Shown: positions 7,802 through 64,000 of the stretch, in pieces | Position numbering within the stretch: the stretch's first letter is position 1 | How the letters are laid out: each line of letters begins with the position of its first letter | From: Owenia fusiformis | Lineage: Eukaryota; Annelida; Polychaeta; Sabellida; Oweniidae | Reading direction: 5' to 3' | Length of the DNA: 64,000 bases | Assembly: GCA_903813345.2 (NCBI GenBank) | Contig: CAIIXF020000006.1 | Span: 18,356,348 to 18,420,347, forward strand | Notes under the pieces: model-generated | Seen by the model: only the letters and a program-made list of their open reading frames with translations | What the model was told of the DNA's origin: nothing | The model's database searches: none | Made by a program: the position numbers and the translations under genes

Positions 7802-8145
7802 TGCCTGATGTGTCTTCTTCGCCTGATGTGTCTTATTCGCCTGATGTGTATTTTTCGCCTGATGTGTCTTCTTCGCCTGATGTGTCTTCTTCCAGACAGT
7901 TAAAAAGTCACTTATTTTATGTTGAATTTTTGGAATCCTCTGTTCAATATTGCAAGGGGAATTCAATGCTGAAAGAGCTCACTCAGACTTTTTGTAATGA
8001 TTCTGTTATAACATCCCTAATTAACCAGAAATATATTTTTGAATGCACATTTCTGGGTCCTGGTTGGGCTAAAGATGATATAGAAAAACAAAAATATTTA
8101 ATGTATATTAAAGGCCGACTAGACCTGATATCACGAGTACTGTAA
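7802..8145 (+). CDS. Possible terminal exon of an unrecognised protein with PDVSSS repeats
   Basis: The open frame starts just after TTGATAATCAG, a plausible splice acceptor; a stop codon at 7795-7797 closes the frame upstream. The first 30 residues are five six-residue units (PDVSSS, PDVSYS, PDVYFS, PDVSSS, PDVSSS) encoded by an 18-bp minisatellite (GCCTGATGTGTCTTCTTC). About 80 residues of normal composition follow, with CNDSVITSLINQKYIFECTF and GPGWAKDDIEKQKYLMYIKG, ending at TAA. I do not recognise the family. No matching donor exon was found upstream. It may be the last exon of a host gene or a fragment of a mobile-element protein. Confidence 0.35.
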
Positions 8146-9153
8146 CATCTGAGACTTATCAGGGAAAACACTGGAAAGCACTTTGAGAACTGTTACCATT
8201 TATTCATATTTTCAAAAAGTCTTGACGTATTTTCCGAGGATGTGTTCCAATGAATAGATCAAGCAAACTGACCAATCCTTGCATGAATTCAAATAAGACA
8301 CAATGGGGTATTTTGCCAAAAGACTACCATTAAAGTTAATTTCGGAAATATTTCGATAAAAACAGGAGATGGGCTTGAACCGTAAAACGTAGTGAACTTT
8401 ACGTCACATCGCAAACAACTTAATTCCTCGTTGAATAACATCAGTAATAATTAATAACTTTTAATGACATTTTCATTTATTGAATGTAACTAATTGATTG
8501 TCGTTAGTTGGTCAGAAGTCGCAAATTTATCATGATGTCAAGCAGAACGAAAATTTGATGAAATATTGAATCCAGTGGGGCTCGACCATATCTATCAAGT
8601 GGATGATTCATGTACGAATTTAGAATTGCTGTTTTTATGACATTTAAGGGGAAGGTGAAATATTAATCAGCAATTATTTGCAACAAAAGTAATTCATAAT
8701 GTGTAAAAGGGACAACTTTTGAATGATTTTAAACTATCTTTAAATTTGTGAAACACAAACTAAATACCGCTTTGTAAGATAGTAATTATTTGATTCCCAG
8801 ATTGTTGACGAAATTATCGAATAATCTAGGCTACCACCTACCCAATGTGGAGGATGCATTTAAAATGTCAGATCACAGACGTCTCAATTAAAATGTTGAA
8901 TAATAGCTCAAACAAGTAAATGGATGGGACGTTGATTGAATGTATGTAACTTGGGATTTGTAATTGTTCTGAAAGCAAAATCAGAAACAGTTCAAAAGAA
9001 ACTAAGTTTCATTTTGATAGATTATCAAAAAAGGAACTAATATTGTCAAATGGAAGAGTTCTGAATTCATAAAATGATACGGAACGACAACACAGAATTT
9101 AAGCTCACATACATGATATCGACATCAAATAATATAGATATTGATTCATATTC
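8146..9153. other. Non-coding stretch, probable 5' intron of the neuropeptide gene
   Basis: No open frame of note. Because an acceptor sits immediately before the neuropeptide ATG, at least part of this stretch should be intron, with the 5' UTR exon somewhere upstream; I could not place that exon. Confidence 0.4.
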
Positions 9154-9168
9154 TTGATATTTTTTCAG
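9154..9168 (+). promoter_or_regulatory. Predicted 3' splice site directly before the neuropeptide start codon
   Basis: TTGATATTTTTTCAG precedes ATGATG. The pyrimidine tract plus CAG is a strong acceptor, implying that the 5' UTR is on a separate exon and that the coding exon opens exactly at the start codon. Confidence 0.6.
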
Positions 9169-9948
9169 ATGATGACCAAAACTAGCCTGCTTGAACTCGT
9201 AGCTGGACTGACGCTGCTGCTATGTATACTAGAGACAACGTATGTACATTGCGCAGTGGACAGTGACCTCAATGAACTGTCAGATAATACATTCTTAGAG
9301 AATGACGCTGACAAAAGAGGAATTGATTCCAATATGTTTCTAGGAAGCTTAGGAAAACGTATGATCGATTCTAATCTATTTAGAGGATCACTCGGAAAAA
9401 GGCGAATCGACTCGAATCTATTTGGAGGATCACTCGGAAAAAGGCGAATCGACTCGAATCTATTTGGAGGATCGCTGGGAAAGCGACGAATTGACTCGAA
9501 TCTATTTGGTGGATCACTCGGAAAGAGGCGAATCGACTCGAATCTATTTGGCGGATCACTCGGAAAGAGGCGAATCGACTCGAATCTATTTGGAGGATCA
9601 CTCGGAAAGAGGCGAATCGACTCGAATCTATTCAGTGGGTCGCTGGGAAAGCGGGGAATTGACTCGAATCTATTCAGAGGATCACTTGGAAAACGACGCA
9701 TTGATTCAAATCTTTTCAGGGGATCACTTGGGAAACGACTCATTGATTCAAATCTATTTCAAGGGTCACTTGGAAAACGACGCATTGACTCAAATCTTTT
9801 TCAAGGGTCACTTGGAAAACGACGCATTGATTCAAATCTTTTTCAAGGGTCACTTGGAAAACGACGCATTGATTCAAATCTTTTTCGTGGGTCATTGGGA
9901 AAAAGAGATGGAGAAACGCCAGGTGAGATTTCAACATCAAAGCTCTAA
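9169..9948 (+). CDS. Neuropeptide precursor, 14 tandem IDSNLFxGSL-amide units
   Basis: The product is a secreted prepropeptide of 259 residues. The start is the ATG at 9169; the open frame extends five codons upstream but only through a splice acceptor. Residues 1-29 are a signal peptide (core GLTLLLCIL, likely cleavage after VHCA). A short acidic spacer ends in DKR. Residues 51-246 are 14 consecutive 14-residue units: GIDSNMFLGSL, MIDSNLFRGSL, five RIDSNLFGGSL, one with FSG, GIDSNLFRGSL, RIDSNLFRGSL, LIDSNLFQGSL, two RIDSNLFQGSL and a final RIDSNLFRGSL, each followed by GKR. Gly before a dibasic site predicts C-terminal amidation, giving xIDSNLFxGSL-amide; where KRR occurs, the leading Arg may be trimmed. 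The tail is DGETPGEISTSKL. CAG/GTGAGA at 9920-9926 could be a donor, so the 3' end may instead be on another exon. I do not recall a family with the GSL-amide ending; SNLF faintly recalls SALMFamides, but the C terminus differs. Confidence 0.93.
   Translation: MMTKTSLLELVAGLTLLLCILETTYVHCAVDSDLNELSDNTFLENDADKRGIDSNMFLGSLGKRMIDSNLFRGSLGKRRIDSNLFGGSLGKRRIDSNLFGGSLGKRRIDSNLFGGSLGKRRIDSNLFGGSLGKRRIDSNLFGGSLGKRRIDSNLFSGSLGKRGIDSNLFRGSLGKRRIDSNLFRGSLGKRLIDSNLFQGSLGKRRIDSNLFQGSLGKRRIDSNLFQGSLGKRRIDSNLFRGSLGKRDGETPGEISTSKL
9319..9906 (+). repeat. 42-bp coding tandem repeat, 14 units
   Basis: Units of exactly 42 bp keep frame throughout. Two DNA subtypes are visible. Units 3-9 mostly use GACTCGAATCTATT with GGA/GGT, while units 10-14 use GATTCAAATC and share TTTCAAGGGTCACTTGG. 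This pattern suggests at least two local expansions. Confidence 0.92.
9920..9926 (+). promoter_or_regulatory. Possible 5' splice site within the neuropeptide tail
   Basis: CAG/GTGAGA (exon edge at 9922) matches the donor consensus well. If used, the last residues would come from a downstream exon, perhaps beyond the gap. If not, the frame ends at TAA 9946-9948. Confidence 0.4.
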
Positions 9949-10176
9949 AAGATTAATTCAATGTAAGACATTATTTTCAATGATGAATTCGTTGATCTGA
10001 CGACTGAATTGGTTTTCTTACACTGTTCTAGAGTTTACGAGAGCCATAAAACGGAATTCTATGCATATAGAGTTGATATTAAAGAAATGGCAACATTCAA
10101 TCGAATTAGTTTAATAAAAGATCTGATGTTGTATACTTATTAAAATAAGTTGGTTCTTTGACCATAAATGACAAAA
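9949..10176 (+). terminator. Neuropeptide 3' region with AATAAA
   Basis: AATAAA at 10113-10118 (and ATTAAA near 10077) lies about 165 bases after the stop codon, as expected for a polyadenylation signal if the open frame is the terminal exon. The assembly gap starts soon after. Confidence 0.45.
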
Positions 10177-10676
10177 NNNNNNNNNNNNNNNNNNNNNNNN
10201 NNNNNNNNNNNNNNNNNNNNNNNNNNNNNNNNNNNNNNNNNNNNNNNNNNNNNNNNNNNNNNNNNNNNNNNNNNNNNNNNNNNNNNNNNNNNNNNNNNNN
10301 NNNNNNNNNNNNNNNNNNNNNNNNNNNNNNNNNNNNNNNNNNNNNNNNNNNNNNNNNNNNNNNNNNNNNNNNNNNNNNNNNNNNNNNNNNNNNNNNNNNN
10401 NNNNNNNNNNNNNNNNNNNNNNNNNNNNNNNNNNNNNNNNNNNNNNNNNNNNNNNNNNNNNNNNNNNNNNNNNNNNNNNNNNNNNNNNNNNNNNNNNNNN
10501 NNNNNNNNNNNNNNNNNNNNNNNNNNNNNNNNNNNNNNNNNNNNNNNNNNNNNNNNNNNNNNNNNNNNNNNNNNNNNNNNNNNNNNNNNNNNNNNNNNNN
10601 NNNNNNNNNNNNNNNNNNNNNNNNNNNNNNNNNNNNNNNNNNNNNNNNNNNNNNNNNNNNNNNNNNNNNNNNNNNN
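10177..10676. other. Assembly gap, 500 N
   Basis: Exactly 500 unknown bases, probably a placeholder. The retroelement on the right runs into it. Confidence 0.99.
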
Positions 10677-11151
10677 ATTTAGTTTTCTCTATATTGAGTG
10701 AAAGCTTGTTATTTTTGAACCAATTGATTATACTTTTTATTTCAGTATTTGCCCTCAAGTAAAGATTGTCTAAGTTGTCATCTTCTAGGGAAATATTTGT
10801 GTCATCTGCAAAAATTACTAATTTTATCATATTGGAAACATTAAATATATCATTTATATACAAAGTGAAAAGGACTGGTCCTAAAACAGACCCTTGAGGG
10901 ACGCCACAGTGTAAAAAATGTTCGTCATCGGAATATGAGCCTGATATGAAAGTTTTCAATGGTCGATTCTTTAAGTAACTTTTAAACCAATTTAACACTG
11001 CTCCACGAAAGCCTAAAAGTTCAAGTTTATTTAATAATATCTTATGATCAATCGTATCGAAAGCTTTTGAGAGGTCCAAATACAATCCTAAAATATGTTT
11101 ATTATTATCCATTGAAAACCGAATTTGTTCCAGAAAAGTTAAGAGAGCCAT
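10677..11151 (-). pseudogene. Non-LTR retrotransposon reverse transcriptase fragment
   Basis: Reading leftwards from an ATG at 11151, about 158 residues show the fingers and palm of a LINE reverse transcriptase: LDLSKAFDTIDH (first catalytic Asp block), GFRGAVLNWFKSYLKNR, GVPQGSVLGPVLFTLYINDI and the active-site FADDT. The order and spacing match Jockey/CR1/L2-type elements. The frame is intact here but enters the gap, and no endonuclease domain is seen to the right, so the copy is 5'-truncated or split. The enzyme would copy element RNA into DNA at the target site. Confidence 0.88.
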
Positions 11152-11229
11152 GTATCAGAAAACATTGGAAAATGAAATAACTCATGAGAAAGGTAAGCGA
11201 TTTGCGTCAAAATAAGATAAGAAAGGGTG

Positions 11230-19099: not shown

Positions 19100-20875
19100 G
19101 ATGATGCTGACTTGGCATGAAAAGCATTTGCAAAGATAAAAACAGAATCATAACATGAGAGTGGAGATATTTTATTAGCATGGACAAGGAGTGAAAATTA
19201 ACATCTATAGAAACCTATTACTTCAAAAAGACCATGACATGAAGGTGGAATAAGCATTTGAAGAAAATGAGGAATAAATTAAATGTATCATTATGATTTG
19301 TTGAATTAGCATTTGTAGAAAGTAAAGATTTAGCAATTTGGCATGAAGGGGAAACAAGCAAATATATATCATCAAATATACAGGAAATAAACATTAAAAT
19401 AAGCAGTAAAAGGGTATTAGCATTTGTAAAAAATAAGTAATAAACGAAATATGCTATGAAATAAAGTTGACATGAGCTTTTTTAGAAGTAAAAAGTAAAT
19501 CAAAAATATGTAAATCATGCTTTCCATATAGATGTTATTCGCATTTGTAAAAGGAAATGAATGAAAAATGCCATGACACGACGCTTAAGGAGGGTCAACA
19601 TTTGTTGAAAATCAGACATGAACAAAGTATACCAATGCATTTGTAAAAACTGGGGTATGAAAAAATAAGCAAAAAAATGAAGAAGGAATTGGCTTTTTTA
19701 TAAAATGAAATTAACAAAATATATCCTCCATAACATTTGAGAGGAATTAGCATTTTTAGAAAATAAGGAATGAAAAATACCATTTATAAGATGAAGGAAT
19801 AAACAAAATATATCATGTATAACATTTGAGTGTAATTGGCACTTGTAGAAAATAAGGATTGAAAAATACGATTTATAAAATGAAGGAATTAACGAAATAA
19901 ATCATGTACAACATTTGAGTGGAATTAGCATTTGTAGAAAATAAGGAATGAAAAATACCTTTTATAAAATGGAGGCCGGAATAAACAAAACATACCATGT
20001 ATAACATTTGAGTGGAATTAGCATTTGTAGAAAATAAGGAATCAAAATTATCATTTATGAAATGGAGGAATAAACAAAATATATATTGTATATCATTTGA
20101 ATGGAATAAGCGTTTGTCGAAACACAGGAATTAAAAATACCATTTACAAAATAAAGGAATAAACAAAATACATCATGTATAACATGTGAGTGGAATTAGC
20201 ATTTGTAAAAAAGGAATGAAAAATACCATATATAAAATGAAGGAATAACAAAATACATCATGTAAAACATTTGAGTGGAATTAGCATTTGTAGAAAAAAG
20301 GAATAAAAATACCATTTATAAAATGAAGGAACAAACAAAATATATAATGTACAACATTTGAGTGGAATTAGCATTTGTAGAAAATAAGGAATGAAAATAC
20401 CATTTATAAAATGAAGGAATAAACAAAACATATCATGTATAACATTTAAGTGGGATTAGCTTTTGTAGAAATAAGGAATTAAAAATACCATTCATAAAAT
20501 GAAGAAATAAACAAAATATATCATGTATAACATTTGAGTGGAATAAGCATTTTTATAAAATAAGGAATGAAAAATACCATTCATAAAATGAAGAAATAAA
20601 CAAAATATATCATGTATAACATTTGAGTGGAATTAGCACTTATAGAAAATAAGGAATGAAAATACCATTTATAAAATGAAGGAATAAACAAAATATAACA
20701 TGTACAACATTTGAGTGAAATTAGCATTTGTAGAAAATAAGGATCAAAAAATCCCATTCATTGAATGAAGGAATAAACAAAATATATCACGTATAACATT
20801 TAAGTGGAATTAGTATTCGTAGAAAATAATGATTAAAAAATAATGTAGAATACCAAATTACTGGGATTAGCATAA
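19100..20875. repeat. 89-bp satellite, left block (about 20 units)
   Basis: The unit contains AACATTTGAGTGGAATTAGC, TTTGTAGAAAATAAGGAATG and TACCATTTATAAAATGAAGG. Successive AATGAAGG words are about 89 bases apart. Early units (19100-19700) are degenerate and later ones are tighter. Confidence 0.9.
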
Positions 20876-21338
20876 GTAGAATATAAGGGTTGTTAAAAGT
20901 AGTATGTGAAGTGTATATATGAAAACTGTTGGATCTACTGTAAAAAAGTTTGCCCGAAAGTAAGTATGAATTTTATGACATGTTAAATATCTAGTTTGAT
21001 CCTGTCAATTTGATCCAAAATATCTTCATGTGATTGGAACTTGTATGTTTCGTGTGTCCTACATGGAAGAAAGATCAGTATTTAAATTCATATATTAATC
21101 AGTATGCTCAGAATTAAGATAATGTGATTATAAGTTTTGATTGTGCATCACAATTTGCAGTACAAGTTCAATGTCTTGAGATACATTTTGTTATACTGAT
21201 ATGCAATTTCTAAAAAGATAATAGGAAATCCTTTCAAGGATAATATACTGGTAACATCAATGGTGTCAGAGTCTTCTATTGTATGTTAATAAAATAAGGA
21301 GAGCGAATTAAATCATGTATTATTGACAATTTTGACAG

Positions 21339-21467
21339 ATCAACACTGGTGTCATCACTGATAGTGATAGTGATGGGGATAGCGATGACAATACGCTGCC
21401 ACCAATAGACATGGACGCCCTCGGTGAATCCAGCAGTAGTGGCAGTAACCAAGACGACTCGTTCGAG
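21339..21467 (+). pseudogene. Acidic first exon of a transposase-type gene
   Basis: Between a TTTTGACAG acceptor and a GAG/GTGTGT donor, 43 open codons give an acidic, Ser/Asp-rich segment starting INTGVITDSDSDGDSDD and ending SSSSGSNQDDSFE. Composition and splice edges mark it as a real exon even though the flanks are satellite. It ends in phase 0, and the zinc-motif exon at 23607 starts in phase 0, so the two can join. Acidic N termini are common in such transposase-derived proteins. A further small exon near 22410-22436 (before GGTGAGT) is possible. Confidence 0.6.
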
Positions 21468-21489
21468 GTGTGTAGACTTAGCATAAGCA

Positions 21490-22395
21490 TTTAATATGAA
21501 GGAATACACAAAATATTATATCATGTATAACATTTGAGTGGAATTAGCATTTGTAGAAAATAAGAAATGAAAAATACCATTTATAAAATGAAGGAATAGA
21601 CAAAATATATATCATGTACGGTATAACATTTAAGTGGAATTAGCATTTGTAGAAAATAAGGAATGAAAAATACCATTCATAAAATGAAGGAATAAGCAAA
21701 ATATATCATGTATAACATTTGAGTGGAATTAGCATTTGTAGAAAATAAGGAATGAAAAATACCATTTATAAAATGAAGGAATAAACAAAACATATCATGT
21801 ATAACATTTGAGTGGAATTAGCATTTGTAGAAAATAAGGAATGAAAAATACCATTTATAAAATGAAGGAATAAACAAAATATTTCATGTAGAACGATTAA
21901 GTGGAATAAGCACTTGTAGAAAATAAAGAAAGAAAAATACCATTTATAAAATTGGAGAATAAACAAGATATACCATGTATAACATTTGAGTGGAATTAGC
22001 ATTTGTAGAAACTAAGGAATGAAAAATACCATTTATAAAATGAAGGAATAAACAAAACATAATCATGTATAACATTTAAGTGGAATTAGCATTTGTAGGA
22101 GATAAGGAATGTAAAATACCACATAAAATGAAGGAATAAACACATATTTCATGTAGAACAATTGAGTGGAATTAGCACTTGTAGAAAATAAGGAACGGAA
22201 AATACCATTTATAAAATGAAGGAATAAACAAAATATATCATGTAGAACAATTAAGTGGAATTAGCACTTGTATATAATAAGGAATGAAAATACCATTTAT
22301 AAAATGAAGGAATAAACAAAATATATCATGAAGAACAAATAAGTGGAATTAGCACTTGTAGAAAATAAAGAAAAAAAAACATTTATAAAATGTTG
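21490..22395. repeat. 89-bp satellite, right block (about 10 units)
   Basis: Same unit and period as the left block; the array stops near 22395. The two blocks flank the acidic exon. Confidence 0.9.
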
Positions 22396-58100: not shown

Positions 58101-59599
58101 GTTATATATGAACTGAGAGTATACTACGTAGTAGTTGTTTTGCGTTTCGCTGGTGGTTTCACCTTGTTGTGACTATAAACTTATGAACTTATAAACACGT
58201 GTTTCAGTATTAATTTGGAGCAATATCAAGCACAAGAGGTCATGGCAAGCCCCGTCTGCACAATAAAGACTGTGGAATCAGTCAAAGAATTGGCACAGTT
58301 GCTAACGGAAACAGATCATGGTGGATTTCCTGTAGTGACTCATGACAAAGAGACAGATCATTATGTTTCCTATGGAATTATAGGACGTACAGAGCTGTAT
58401 ATTATTCTCTGTTCGAAGTCAATTTCAAGTGCTGCTGATAGTCAGTCAGAGGTGCTGGTGTCTCCAAAGCTTACATACCAAGAGGTGATATTCGCAGTCA
58501 TTTTTAAGTTGAAATTTTTTTATGTTTACATTCCTAAAATACAAGTCAAGTTCAACAAGCACGTTGAACCACGAACGTTTCTTCCGATAATTGTTTAACA
58601 CAAGCAACAAGTTTTCTTATGATAACTGTATAGCAAAAAGATTTCTTCTTCAATAGCCAGTTTCTTGCACTAATTAGCATATGCAACCTTCTTCTGGTAA
58701 TTGATAGCATCAGTAGGATTCTTCCACTTAGGGTGCAAACGTTTTTTATATGCTACAACATTTAAGTGGCACATTAGGTATCACATTATTATTCAAATAG
58801 TACGTCCTTTGTTTTATCTTCGCAATGGTATTAAAGAATTAATATGTTTTGCACTGAATAGTGGAATATTTGATGATTAAAAATTTCAACTTTTATTTGA
58901 AAAGTGGCGGGAAATATGAATATTTGAAAAGTAAAGAACTTTTTCCCTCAATTTTGTTTTTCAAAAATCCTTAAATAACTTTTACAGTCATGAAAATAGT
59001 AAATGAATGATAAAACATATTTTCAAACTTTAGATGGGCCTTTAAAGTTAAACTGAAAACGCGGAATTAAATAAGGATATGTATTTATAGGTGTCTCAAG
59101 TAAAAGGAACCTTAGATTTGGGAGAGGTCTTCGATTCACTCAATAGCCTAGCAAATGACCAAAGATATCAACATGTACATGTCAATTTGGTAAGAAAGAA
59201 CTGTTGTGTTCTTATAGTTTGGTAAAATAATGGTAATGTTAGAGTAAATTAATTTATTATATTTAAACTAATCAGTACTATACAATGATAATGATAAATC
59301 ATGACATGTGCTATTAATTTAACCATTTTTCCTTGCAGTCTCCATTTATTAATAAATCTGCTCCAAATATCGACCAGAACTTTTCACTCCATCGGACCTA
59401 TTTAGTCTTCCGCACCCTGGGTCTGCGCCATCTGACGGTGGTTGATAGAAACAATAGAGTAGTTGGTATGATTACAAGAAAGGATTTAATGGGGTATAAT
59501 TTAGAGAAAAAACTTGATGTGCATGGTCGAAATAAAGCCAGTAAGGAGGAGCGTGAAGAAAAGTTACGAATGATCAATGGACGTGAAATGGAACTTTAA
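40033..59599 (+). CDS. ClC-6/7-type H+/Cl- exchange transporter, multi-exon gene
   Basis: Seventeen exons join in phase with GT-AG introns to an open 999-residue model: 40033-40176, 41308-41577, 53114-53253, 53682-53811, 54088-54165, 54608-54783, 55042-55134, 55257-55500, 55836-56033, 56210-56430, 56598-56749, 56981-57152, 57425-57599, 57762-57931, 58208-58484, 59091-59189, 59339-59599. The product is a late-endosomal or lysosomal membrane antiporter exchanging chloride for protons. Selectivity motif GSGIPE at 262-267 has Ser (chloride type). Gating glutamate E306 lies in GPEGPMIH, proton glutamate E373 in FAMEEVSSFW, 67 residues apart as in human ClC-7. GFVVP is at 667-671; the two CBS domains are in exons 15 and 17. 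Model length exceeds ClC-7 (about 800) because of a long basic N terminus and a larger lumenal loop (exons 10-12) with NAT, NNS and NKS glycosylation sites. YDSLDY before helix B fits ClC-6/7. Exon 1 is the least certain. Confidence 0.9.
40439..40805. mobile_element. Mariner-type MITE, CAGAGTGGGCCA ends, 367 bp
   Basis: CAGAGTGGGCCACTAATG with GTTACTGATTT on the left, inverted on the right (AAATCAGTAAC, TTGGCCAACTCTG), and TA outside each end. It sits in intron 1 of the ClC gene. Confidence 0.85.
41308..41577 (+). CDS. ClC exon 2, cytoplasmic N terminus
   Basis: Acceptor TTCTATTCGCAG and donor AGT/GTAAGT bound 90 codons: GFIYKKHYSPNIDEQLNMSK, then basic and Ser-rich text (RRGSSGIWIKRNSSKDKVKD) and FQPEKHDAKFFAS. 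If exon 1 is wrong, translation could begin at the internal ATG at 41359. Attachment to exon 3 crosses 11.5 kb of repeats and is inferred from phase and direction. Confidence 0.65.
41634..41840 (+). mobile_element. Two mariner-like ends in ClC intron 2
   Basis: TATACGAGGCTCGATCAGAA (41634) and GATACGAGGGTTGTCCCATA (41780) resemble mariner terminal repeats beginning TACGAGG. A third, TACGAGGGTCAATCAATGAA, is in ClC intron 5 at 54179. Partner ends and transposase were not found. Confidence 0.4.
42220..42765. repeat. AAAGC / GCTTT-rich element with mirror-image halves
   Basis: The left half repeats AAAGC, AAGCG and AAGCTT words (for example CAAAGCGTAACAAAGCTTG). The right half repeats CGCTTT and GCTTTGTTACGCTT, the reverse complement. 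The pattern is that of a decayed foldback element built of short words. It is CpG-rich in AT-rich surroundings. Confidence 0.55.
43877..44140. mobile_element. GGGCGTAGCCAG-type MITE, copy 2
   Basis: GAGCGTAGCCAGCTTTCAGT followed by a G run and GTGCGATCG, with the same interior as copy 1 (ATTGAGCTAGACGCTTCAAA). The right end is altered. Confidence 0.7.
44560..45620 (+). repeat. Three tandem units of about 360 bp in the left arm of element 2
   Basis: Each unit has AACTTCCA, GTTTTGA, GAAAGCTGTAAGTGG, then ATTATGCAAAT...ATTTGCATAA, then TGTGACATCAT, then AATATATAGGTA and TTTTGAACATATTTG. Palindrome spacers differ: TGTCTC, AGTCTC and TTTCCC. Confidence 0.8.
46050..47660 (-). pseudogene. Decayed reverse-transcriptase gene inside element 2
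   Basis: Reading leftwards, scattered frames give SSKPFDQSDFKLDEVRTIIR, KNSHKLLIHLW, FIPKELKFEGLNQFK, LDAEGKIFWAIV, VVWLDL, RAFMDDIKVMTSSVVGTR (catalytic FMDD at 46571-46582), KINGKQIPT and LDKWLKAID. The order matches a non-LTR-type reverse transcriptase family common in marine invertebrates (EVR..VRKA, P..L...W, ..EGKIFF, LDL, FMDD). There are many stops and frameshifts and no intact domain. Confidence 0.7.
48830..49540 (-). repeat. Two tandem units of about 360 bp in the right arm of element 2
   Basis: Mirror copies of the left-arm units; octamer palindromes near 49045 (decayed) and 49410. Confidence 0.75.
49875..51243. other. ClC intron 2, non-coding
   Basis: No gene recognised; short frames at 49917-50491 are AT-rich chance frames. 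Confidence 0.4.
51244..51611. mobile_element. Mariner-type MITE, CAGAGTGGGCCAAAAA ends, 368 bp
   Basis: CAGAGTGGGCCAAAAACATC plus CACATTTTTGTTTTTGT at the left mirrors ACAAAAATAAAAATGTGG and TTTTTTGCCCTCCCTG at the right; TA on each side. Its size and ends match the element at 40439. Confidence 0.85.
51614..52804. other. ClC intron 2, non-coding
   Basis: No gene recognised. The phrase ATCTTGTGAGAAAATTAA near 51845 repeats one at 49730, suggesting a shared old insertion. Confidence 0.4.
52805..53012. mobile_element. GGGCGTAGCCAG-type MITE, copy 3
   Basis: CAGGGGAGTAACCAGCCAG with a G run and GTGCGATTGCGGCATA, ending CGCACCCCTGGCTACGCC. It lies about 100 bp upstream of ClC exon 3. Confidence 0.75.
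53114..53253 (+). CDS. ClC exon 3
   Basis: Starts after TATTAAG (weak acceptor) and ends at CCAG/GTTAGT. Encodes GRDFASVYTNHQ and SKYDSLDYLPSH, the YxSLDY region just before the first helix of ClC-6/7 proteins. Confidence 0.85.
53682..53811 (+). CDS. ClC exon 4, first membrane helix
   Basis: Acceptor TTCCCTTTTAG, donor ATC/GTAAGT. Encodes LDWDRWVMMAFIGFSVGVTG and KWHYAEKFVI. Confidence 0.9.
54088..54165 (+). CDS. ClC exon 5
   Basis: Acceptor AATTCATTTCAG, donor GCA/GTAAGT. Encodes DSHVKAYLWVLGYSLVFASL. Confidence 0.9.
54608..54783 (+). CDS. ClC exon 6, chloride filter and gating glutamate
   Basis: Encodes AAGSGIPEIIGFLNG and GSGMPVGPEGPMIHMG. Ser of GSGIP coordinates chloride; Glu of GPEGP is the external gate. 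Pro replaces the Lys of GKEGP found in human ClC-6 and ClC-7. Confidence 0.95.
55042..55134 (+). CDS. ClC exon 7
   Basis: Encodes GIIGSGLSQCKSRTF and LPFFERFRNPEDR between CAG acceptor and AG/GTATGT donor. Confidence 0.9.
55257..55500 (+). CDS. ClC exon 8, proton glutamate
   Basis: Encodes RNFTSAGAGAGVAAAFSSPV, GGLLFAMEEVSSFW (second Glu is the internal proton site) and TFFCCMVATFTADFF. Confidence 0.95.
55836..56033 (+). CDS. ClC exon 9
   Basis: Encodes GIPVNVIMFIPAVALGVLGG, a helix, and KKPLLQKTVSFLEPILIT. Confidence 0.92.
56210..56430 (+). CDS. ClC exon 10, lumenal loop
   Basis: Encodes VIFTTISVYLPIAFDCK, then a polar, His-rich loop with PSNAT (glycosylation) and HKRAGFFESEH. The AG/GTTTGT donor is weak, but exon 11 joins in frame. 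Confidence 0.88.
56598..56749 (+). CDS. ClC exon 11, lumenal loop continued
   Basis: Encodes RDVCNNSKFTYKVEPNLPH and AYTNKSLDHNGHTYHFNDF with two further glycosylation sites. Confidence 0.88.
56981..57152 (+). CDS. ClC exon 12
   Basis: Encodes SVLLNVPGADAIRHLF, a helix (LLVVFPIYFIMACWAAG) and SSGFVVPML, the conserved GxFxP anion-binding motif. Confidence 0.92.
57425..57599 (+). CDS. ClC exon 13
   Basis: Encodes FIGGVYGRIVGRAAVDIFG and FALIGAASFFGGVSRLTMSL, ending TVIM at a GTGATT donor. Confidence 0.92.
57762..57931 (+). CDS. ClC exon 14, last helix and start of cytoplasmic tail
   Basis: Encodes IELTNDVLFLLPIMVTIMVS and KWVADYITHPLYHSLLELKC, aligning without gaps to the same stretch of ClC-7. 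Confidence 0.92.
58208..58484 (+). CDS. ClC exon 15, CBS domain 1
   Basis: Encodes AQEVMASPVCTIKTVESVKE, GGFPVVTHD and GIIGRTELYIIL, a CBS module. Confidence 0.92.
59091..59189 (+). CDS. ClC exon 16, linker between CBS domains
   Basis: Encodes VSQVKGTLDLGEVFDSL and ANDQRYQHVHVNL. Confidence 0.85.
59339..59599 (+). CDS. ClC exon 17, CBS domain 2 and stop
   Basis: Encodes SPFINKSAPNIDQ, RTLGLRHLTVVDRNNRVVGM, ITRKDLMGYNL and a charged tail ending NGREMEL, stop TAA at 59597-59599. Confidence 0.95.
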   Translation, partial: SPFINKSAPNIDQNFSLHRTYLVFRTLGLRHLTVVDRNNRVVGMITRKDLMGYNLEKKLDVHGRNKASKEEREEKLRMINGREMEL

Positions 59600-62749: not shown

Positions 62750-64000
62750 CATGACAAAATGTCACCACCTAAAACAATTTGGTCAATTTAAAGCAGTTGA
62801 AAAAATACCTCTTTGACTTTTTTAGACATTGAGAAGGTCATTGAAGGTCAAATATCAAATGTAAAGTCAGATTTGAACTTCTGAGAACATGTAAAGTCAA
62901 ATTTGAACTTCTGAAAAGATGTAGATGATTTTGAAAAAAAAATTAAGTAAATTTGAAGCAAGTTGAAAAAAGACCTTTTTGACCTTGAAAAGGTCATTGA
63001 AGGTCAAAAGTCAAATCTAAAGTCAGATTTGAACTTCTGAGAACTTGTAAAGTCAAATTTGAACTTCTGAAAAGATGTAGATGATTTTGAAAAAAAAATT
63101 TGGTCAATTTGAAGCAAGTTGAAAAAAGACCTTTTTGACCTTTTTTTGACCTTGAGAAGGTCATTAAAGGTCAAATGTCAAATCTAAAGTCAGATTTGAA
63201 TTTCTGAGAACATGTAGATGATTTTGAAAAAAAAATTTAGTCAATTTGAAGCAAGTTGAAAAAAGACCTTTTTGACCTTTTTGACCTTGAGAAGGTCATT
63301 GAAGGTCAAATGTCAAATCTTAAGTCATATTTGAATTTCTGAGAACATGTAGATGATTTTGAAAAAAAAATTTAGTCAATTTGAAGCAAGATGAAAAAAT
63401 ACCTTTTTGACCTTTTTTGACATTGAGAAGGTCATTGAAGGTCAAATGTCAAATCTAAAGTCAGATTTGAATTTCTGAGAACATGTAGATGATCTTGAAA
63501 AAAAAATTTAGTCAATTTGAAGCAAGTTGAAAAAAGACCTTTTTGACCTTTTTTGACTTTGAGAAGGTCATTGAAGGTCAAATGTCAAATCTTAAGTCAA
63601 ATCTAAAGTCAGATTTGAATTTCTGAGAACACGTAGATGATTTTGAAAAAATTTTTTAGTCAATTTGAAGCAAGTTGAAAACAGACCTTTTTGACCTTTT
63701 TTGACCTTGAGAAGGTCATTGAAGGTCTTATGTCAAATCTTAAGTCAGATTTGAATTTCTGAGAACACGTAGATGATTTTGAAAAAAAAATTTAGTCAAT
63801 TTGAAGCAAGTTGAAAACAGACCTTTTTGACCTTTTTTGACCTTGAGAAGGTCATTGAAGGTCAAATGTCAAATCTAAAGTCAGATTTGAAGGTCAAATG
63901 TCAAATCTAAAGTCAGATTTGAATTTCTGAGAACATGTAGATGATTTTGAAAAAAAATTTAGTTAATGTGAAGCAAGTTGAAAAAAGACCTTTTTGACCT
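62750..64000. repeat. 136-bp satellite dense in AGGTCA/TGACCT, running off the window
   Basis: About nine units. The marker GAGAAGGTCATT (or variant) falls at 62831, 62987, 63154, 63289, 63425, 63561, 63709 and 63845, so the basic period is 135-136 bp with some longer units (148-167) carrying internal duplications. Each unit has TGACCTTTTTTGACCTTGAG, AAGGTCATTGAAGGTCA, AAATCTAAAGTCAGATTTGA, a TGTAGATGATTTTG phrase and an A run. Confidence 0.92.

Follow-up and report, generated by a model that had tools for sequence, protein, structure and literature searches.

The window analysed here is a 64,000 bp stretch of the genome of the annelid Owenia fusiformis (G000:C6:18356348-18420347). On its forward strand lies an open reading frame at 9169-9948 (positions are those of the window) that is translated into 259 amino acids and a stop codon, within a stop-to-stop frame spanning 9145-9948. 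The first segment (9169-9252) is a predicted signal peptide, MMTKTSLLELVAGLTLLLCILETTYVHC, whose cleavage site is a guess; the Kyte-Doolittle profile peaks at 2.81 (11-residue mean) within residues 10-21, which fits a signal peptide. There follow an acidic spacer with a terminal Lys-Arg (9253-9318; VDSDLNELSDNTFLENDADKR, with 7 acidic and 2 basic residues), 14 tandem units of the form xIDSN(L/M)FxGSL-GKR (9319-9906), whose predicted products are 11-residue Leu-amides, and a C-terminal tail, DGETPGEISTSKL (9907-9945). An acceptor-like ttttttcag (9160-9168) sits directly 5' of the ATG, and an intron in the 5' UTR is possible. A donor-like CAG|GTGAGA (9923-9928) lies 3' of the last unit; if it were used, the tail would be partly replaced and the gene could have an alternative coding 3' end. 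An AATAAA polyadenylation-like signal is found 165 bases past the stop codon, at 10113-10118, also on the forward strand. The gene is followed by a run of 500 N (10177-10676) that resembles an assembly gap or a withheld stretch and, directly downstream, by part of a retroelement reverse transcriptase on the reverse strand (RVT_1, E 2.3e-23, 10684-11154). Elsewhere in the window, we noted an 18-bp repeat in five copies within an open frame (7803-7892, forward strand) that encodes SPDVSS-like units and had no match in a Pfam search, two tandem arrays (19697-22392, unit ~89 bp, 30.1 copies; 63048-63891, unit ~136 bp, 6.1 copies), and an exon-like frame (58179-58598, forward strand) that contains a CBS domain (E 2.4e-05) and by eye looks like the C-terminus of a chloride channel.

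Exactly 14 units end in GSLGKR, always at a spacing of 14 residues, and Tandem Repeats Finder independently reported a period of 42 bp with 13.1 copies at 9352-9903. The layout given in the preliminary description, with a signal peptide, an acidic spacer and 14 in-frame units of 14 residues ending in GSL-GKR, is thus borne out by translation, hydropathy and the unit count, and its reading of the product as a secreted precursor of many peptides, cleaved at Lys-Arg and supplied with glycines for amidation, is supported. Of the 14 unit columns, 11 show a single amino acid throughout, 10 of them with more than one codon. Comparison of the units counted 535 synonymous and 130 non-synonymous codon-pair differences. 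For the GSLGKR columns the counts are 274 and 0, and for the IDSNLF columns 225 and 13, whereas the two variable columns have 36 synonymous and 117 non-synonymous differences. Mean pairwise dN is 0.10 and mean pairwise dS 1.07 (57 of 91 unit pairs with a computable dS above 0). We conclude that purifying selection has preserved the peptide together with its processing signal, whereas the silent sites of the repeats have diverged.

Prohormone convertases cut after Lys-Arg, a carboxypeptidase trims the two basic residues, and peptidylglycine amidation turns the exposed Gly into a C-terminal amide. Processed in this way, the precursor would yield peptides of the form (R/G/M/L)IDSN(L/M)F(G/R/Q/S/L)GSL-NH2. 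The first residue is Arg in ten units, Gly in two, and Met and Leu in one each; residue 8 is Gly in five, Arg in four, Gln in three, and Ser and Leu in one each. The preliminary description lists the same variants, but the Leu it gave at position 6 is not universal, since unit 1 reads GIDSNMFLGSL, with Met at that position. Eight distinct amidated peptides are predicted from the 14 units. The most frequent are RIDSNLFGGSL-NH2 (5), RIDSNLFRGSL-NH2 (2) and RIDSNLFQGSL-NH2 (2); GIDSNMFLGSL, MIDSNLFRGSL, RIDSNLFSGSL, GIDSNLFRGSL and LIDSNLFQGSL are each predicted once. The calculated [M+H]+ masses of the amidated forms are 1177.632 (RIDSNLFGGSL-NH2 and the isobaric GIDSNLFRGSL-NH2), 1248.670, 1276.712, 1251.651, 1152.572, 1205.652 and 1207.643.

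The preliminary description knew of no family with this ending and regarded the peptide as unfamiliar. Published work indicates otherwise. A C-terminal GxL-amide is reported for the allatostatin A (buccalin) of molluscs, and five GSL-amides for the scallop, two of which, RMPFFGSL-amide and KLRPSFYGSL-amide, are confirmed by mass spectrometry (PMC5996578); a GSL ending before GKR is present in 14/14 Owenia units. The resemblance extends over the whole 11-residue peptide, which aligns in register and without gaps with a synthetic Biomphalaria buccalin, RLDRFGFAGQL-NH2 (PMC9114394). Counting from the C-terminus, Asp at -9, Phe at -5, Gly at -3 and Leu at -1 are common to both, as is the N-terminal Arg in 10/14 units; RIDSNLFGGSL and RIDSNLFRGSL are each identical to the Biomphalaria peptide at 5/11 positions, and the second residue is Ile in RIDSNLFRGSL and Leu in the buccalin. 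All 14 units also fit a gastropod buccalin pattern of 11 residues, hydrophobic-D-x3-F-x-G-x-L, which is our own reading of RLDRFGFAGQL and of Aplysia buccalins; the scallop peptides compared lack that Asp.

The architecture of the precursor points the same way. Like molluscan buccalins, it combines a signal peptide (by hydropathy), many copies, Lys-Arg cleavage sites and C-terminal Leu-amides with an FxGxL or GSL ending, and it shares with the gastropod peptides both the length of 11 residues and the Asp at -9. Molluscan buccalin precursors are multicopy, with 7 to 29 peptides (PMC8514136). The Owenia units differ from them in being near-uniform (8 peptides from 14 units), in their invariant IDSN(L/M)F, and in coming from an annelid rather than from a mollusc. 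In arthropods, allatostatin A is likewise a multicopy L-amide, with a presumed related receptor group (PMC9263205), but it has Gly at -2 and a Y/FxFGL-amide ending, whereas the Owenia peptide has Gly at -3 and FxGSL in 14/14 units, which does not fit the arthropod type.

We scored three of the eight distinct peptides (RIDSNLFRGSL, RIDSNLFQGSL and RIDSNLFGGSL) against 46 neuropeptides, a self-chosen, non-exhaustive set assembled by hand, with some of the sequences taken from papers. For RIDSNLFRGSL and RIDSNLFQGSL, all seven buccalins outrank every other peptide in this set. For RIDSNLFGGSL, ranks 1-5 are all buccalins, and a sulfakinin then reaches 14, a score that the fifth of these and Aplysia buccalin B also have. 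The two best buccalins score 20 to 23, and the weakest score 12 to 14, near the best tachykinin (11 to 12). In 5000 shuffles, uncorrected for the 46 comparisons, RIDSNLFRGSL gave p 0.0018 against the Biomphalaria buccalin and p 0.0004 against Aplysia buccalin A. The per-comparison values for the seven buccalins range from 0.0004 to 0.0092 for this peptide and from 0.002 to 0.032 for RIDSNLFGGSL, and most single-comparison values would fail correction for 46 comparisons.

Most molluscs usually have one buccalin precursor per genome (PMC8514136), and nemerteans have two such precursors. We searched the whole Owenia assembly (498,259,871 bases, 525 contigs) with degenerate patterns for FxGxL-GKR and FGL-GKR. 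These patterns, like those for tachykinins used below, match more than their targets (YTN covers Phe as well, MGN Ser and MRR Gln), so match counts are upper bounds; the searches miss split genes, split sites and other or unusual cleavage sites. FxGxL-GKR gave 80 matches, 14 of them in the array described here, against 41 for the reversed-pattern control; elsewhere there were never more than two matches within 1 kb, and no second array was found. FGL-GKR gave 58 matches, of which 36 are one identical sequence, against 30 for the control; no two lie within 1 kb of each other, and no array of this type was found genome-wide. Within the limits of the patterns used, the genome thus yielded a single array and no other that resembles allatostatin A. 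A genome search with the precursor itself returned 105 matches with E values of 10 or less, of which only the best candidates were scored. We extracted five further loci (L002-L006) and inspected three of them, none of which looks like a paralogue: L002 has 13 internal stops in the match and no GKR in its two longest frames, L005 carries YNDPETFKGMEPKR-type units that lack GKR, and L006 has threonine-rich repeats. L005, together with L022, belongs to a 1914-residue open frame on the reverse strand of C11 (~5362180-5367920). Lys-Arg pairs delimit 120 segments in it, 99 of them with a length of 14 residues (for example YNEPETFKAMEP-KR and YNDPKTFKGMEP-KR); these come after a stretch of SRRYSPLLLKDAQL-type units. 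GKR is absent from the part checked (L005), and the frame may represent a multicopy peptide precursor of very large size.

We looked for a receptor using a human galanin receptor 1 (GALR1) sequence, which matches a PDB entry over its full length, and obtained 123 matches with E values no higher than 1e-6. The best, at C9:29251406-29252299, has 43% identity and E 1.1e-62; the next has E 5.8e-45. The same gene was the best match of a fragment of the fly allatostatin-A receptor (151.6 bits, versus 105.3 for the next gene). The best PDB matches of its 411-residue frame are galanin receptors 1 and 2 (229.7 and 213.9 bits), and the best opioid receptor reaches 190.8 bits. In a blastp comparison among eight receptor frames of this genome, the gene stands apart, its best match being L010 (33% identity, 181 bits). 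A second gene has two exons, at C6:22549673 and 22561022; it matches galanin receptor 1 first and the kisspeptin receptor next. Annelids are reported to keep buccalin, galanin-like and kisspeptin-like receptors, and two galanin-type receptor genes fit that report; since galanin-like receptors are among those kept, the C9 gene could instead be of the galanin-like type (PMC8514136). It is the best candidate in this genome for an allatostatin-A/buccalin receptor. A private, lineage-specific receptor, which the preliminary description had put forward as a possibility, is unnecessary, because a candidate of the galanin/allatostatin-A group exists in the same genome.

Taken together, these comparisons suggest that the gene is probably a buccalin/allatostatin-A-type neuropeptide precursor of a lophotrochozoan. 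Because its peptide looks like buccalin, the molluscan form of allatostatin A, the precursor most likely adds a member to an established signalling family and does not represent a new transmitter. This assignment to a known family, which the preliminary description had set against its own reading, is now largely made by the peptide motif and not through a sequence-verified orthologue of a related species: membership rests on 11 residues. The terms "allatostatin" and "buccalin" are absent from the main text of one Owenia paper (PMC10880339) and "neuropeptide" from that of another (PMC9977687), and Platynereis allatostatin-A peptides were not found in a main-text part of PMC3890597. The Aplysia buccalin strings had no occurrence in the literature searched, and the match to "DSNLFR" was a paper on the fruitless gene in an insect.

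The reading that competes best is that of an L-amide neuropeptide confined to this lineage and acting on a receptor of its own, in which the likeness to buccalin would be chance in a short motif. The shared motif is indeed short, the string "IDSNLF" had no occurrence among the papers listed by a literature search, and a Pfam and NCBIfam search of the precursor gave no match above cut-off. The units are also more uniform than mussel buccalins, which are 16-72% identical among themselves, though a Nautilus precursor with 29 peptides has only 3 types (PMC8514136). However, the 11 residues are in register with a published buccalin, and the patterns used found no other FxGxL-GKR or FGL-GKR array to serve as allatostatin A, though a receptor candidate is present; we consider this reading unlikely.

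Considerably less likely is a derived tachykinin-related precursor in which an FxGxR-amide ending became FxGxL-amide. Protostome tachykinin-related peptides end in FxGxR-amide and have the Phe (-5) and the Gly (-3) in common with the Owenia peptide, and for two of the three scored units a Urechis tachykinin ranks right after the seven buccalins. Two tachykinin patterns yielded no tandem FxGxR-G-dibasic array in the genome, which counts in favour of this reading; their 18 and 95 matches represent no excess, since the controls gave 35 and 175. Two sites on C8 have no [FY]-x-G-x-x-G-[KR]-[KR] reading at their loci, probably a result of the degeneracy that lets the pattern accept Ser, and two nearby sites on C3 lie in short frames of 24 and 38 residues. 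Against a tachykinin origin, the C-terminal residue is Leu and not Arg in 14/14 units, and the tachykinin scores 11 to 12 where the top two buccalins reach 20 to 23; the weakest buccalin, however, scores no more than 12 to 13.

Membership of the molluscan LASGLI/V-amide family, formerly called buccalin-like, is very improbable. PFDRLASGLV-amide also has an early Asp, amidation and a multicopy layout (PMC8514136), and the ungapped local score is 13 for two units; however, this family differs in both core and C-terminus, ending in V/I-amide with LASG where the Owenia units have FxGSL-amide, and the C-anchored scores are 6 and 7 for two units and outside the top 12 for the third. That the gene encodes a repetitive secreted protein and not a neuropeptide precursor is scarcely credible, given that Gly-Lys-Arg closes all 14 units and is kept under synonymous change.

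The buccalin/allatostatin-A assignment is good on motif and tentative on function, because a review finds no clear evidence, molecular or functional, for orthology between lophotrochozoan L-amides and allatostatin A (PMC9263205). After release from neurons, the peptides would act on a receptor of the rhodopsin type from the galanin/allatostatin-A group, with C9:29251406-29252299 as the best candidate. Buccalins reduce contraction of the accessory radula closer muscle in Aplysia and are tied to feeding (PMC9263205); by analogy, the Owenia peptides are likely to be inhibitory modulators of muscle, as in feeding and the gut. There is an outside chance that the IDSNLFxGSL-amides have left the allatostatin-A receptor and signal via a different one, perhaps the product of another galanin/somatostatin-like gene, in which case their likeness to buccalin would be a relic or convergence. 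The gene provides a simple set of predicted ligands and the genome one leading candidate for their receptor, so that a connection of lophotrochozoan L-amides with allatostatin-A receptors, as yet unproven, becomes directly testable in Owenia.
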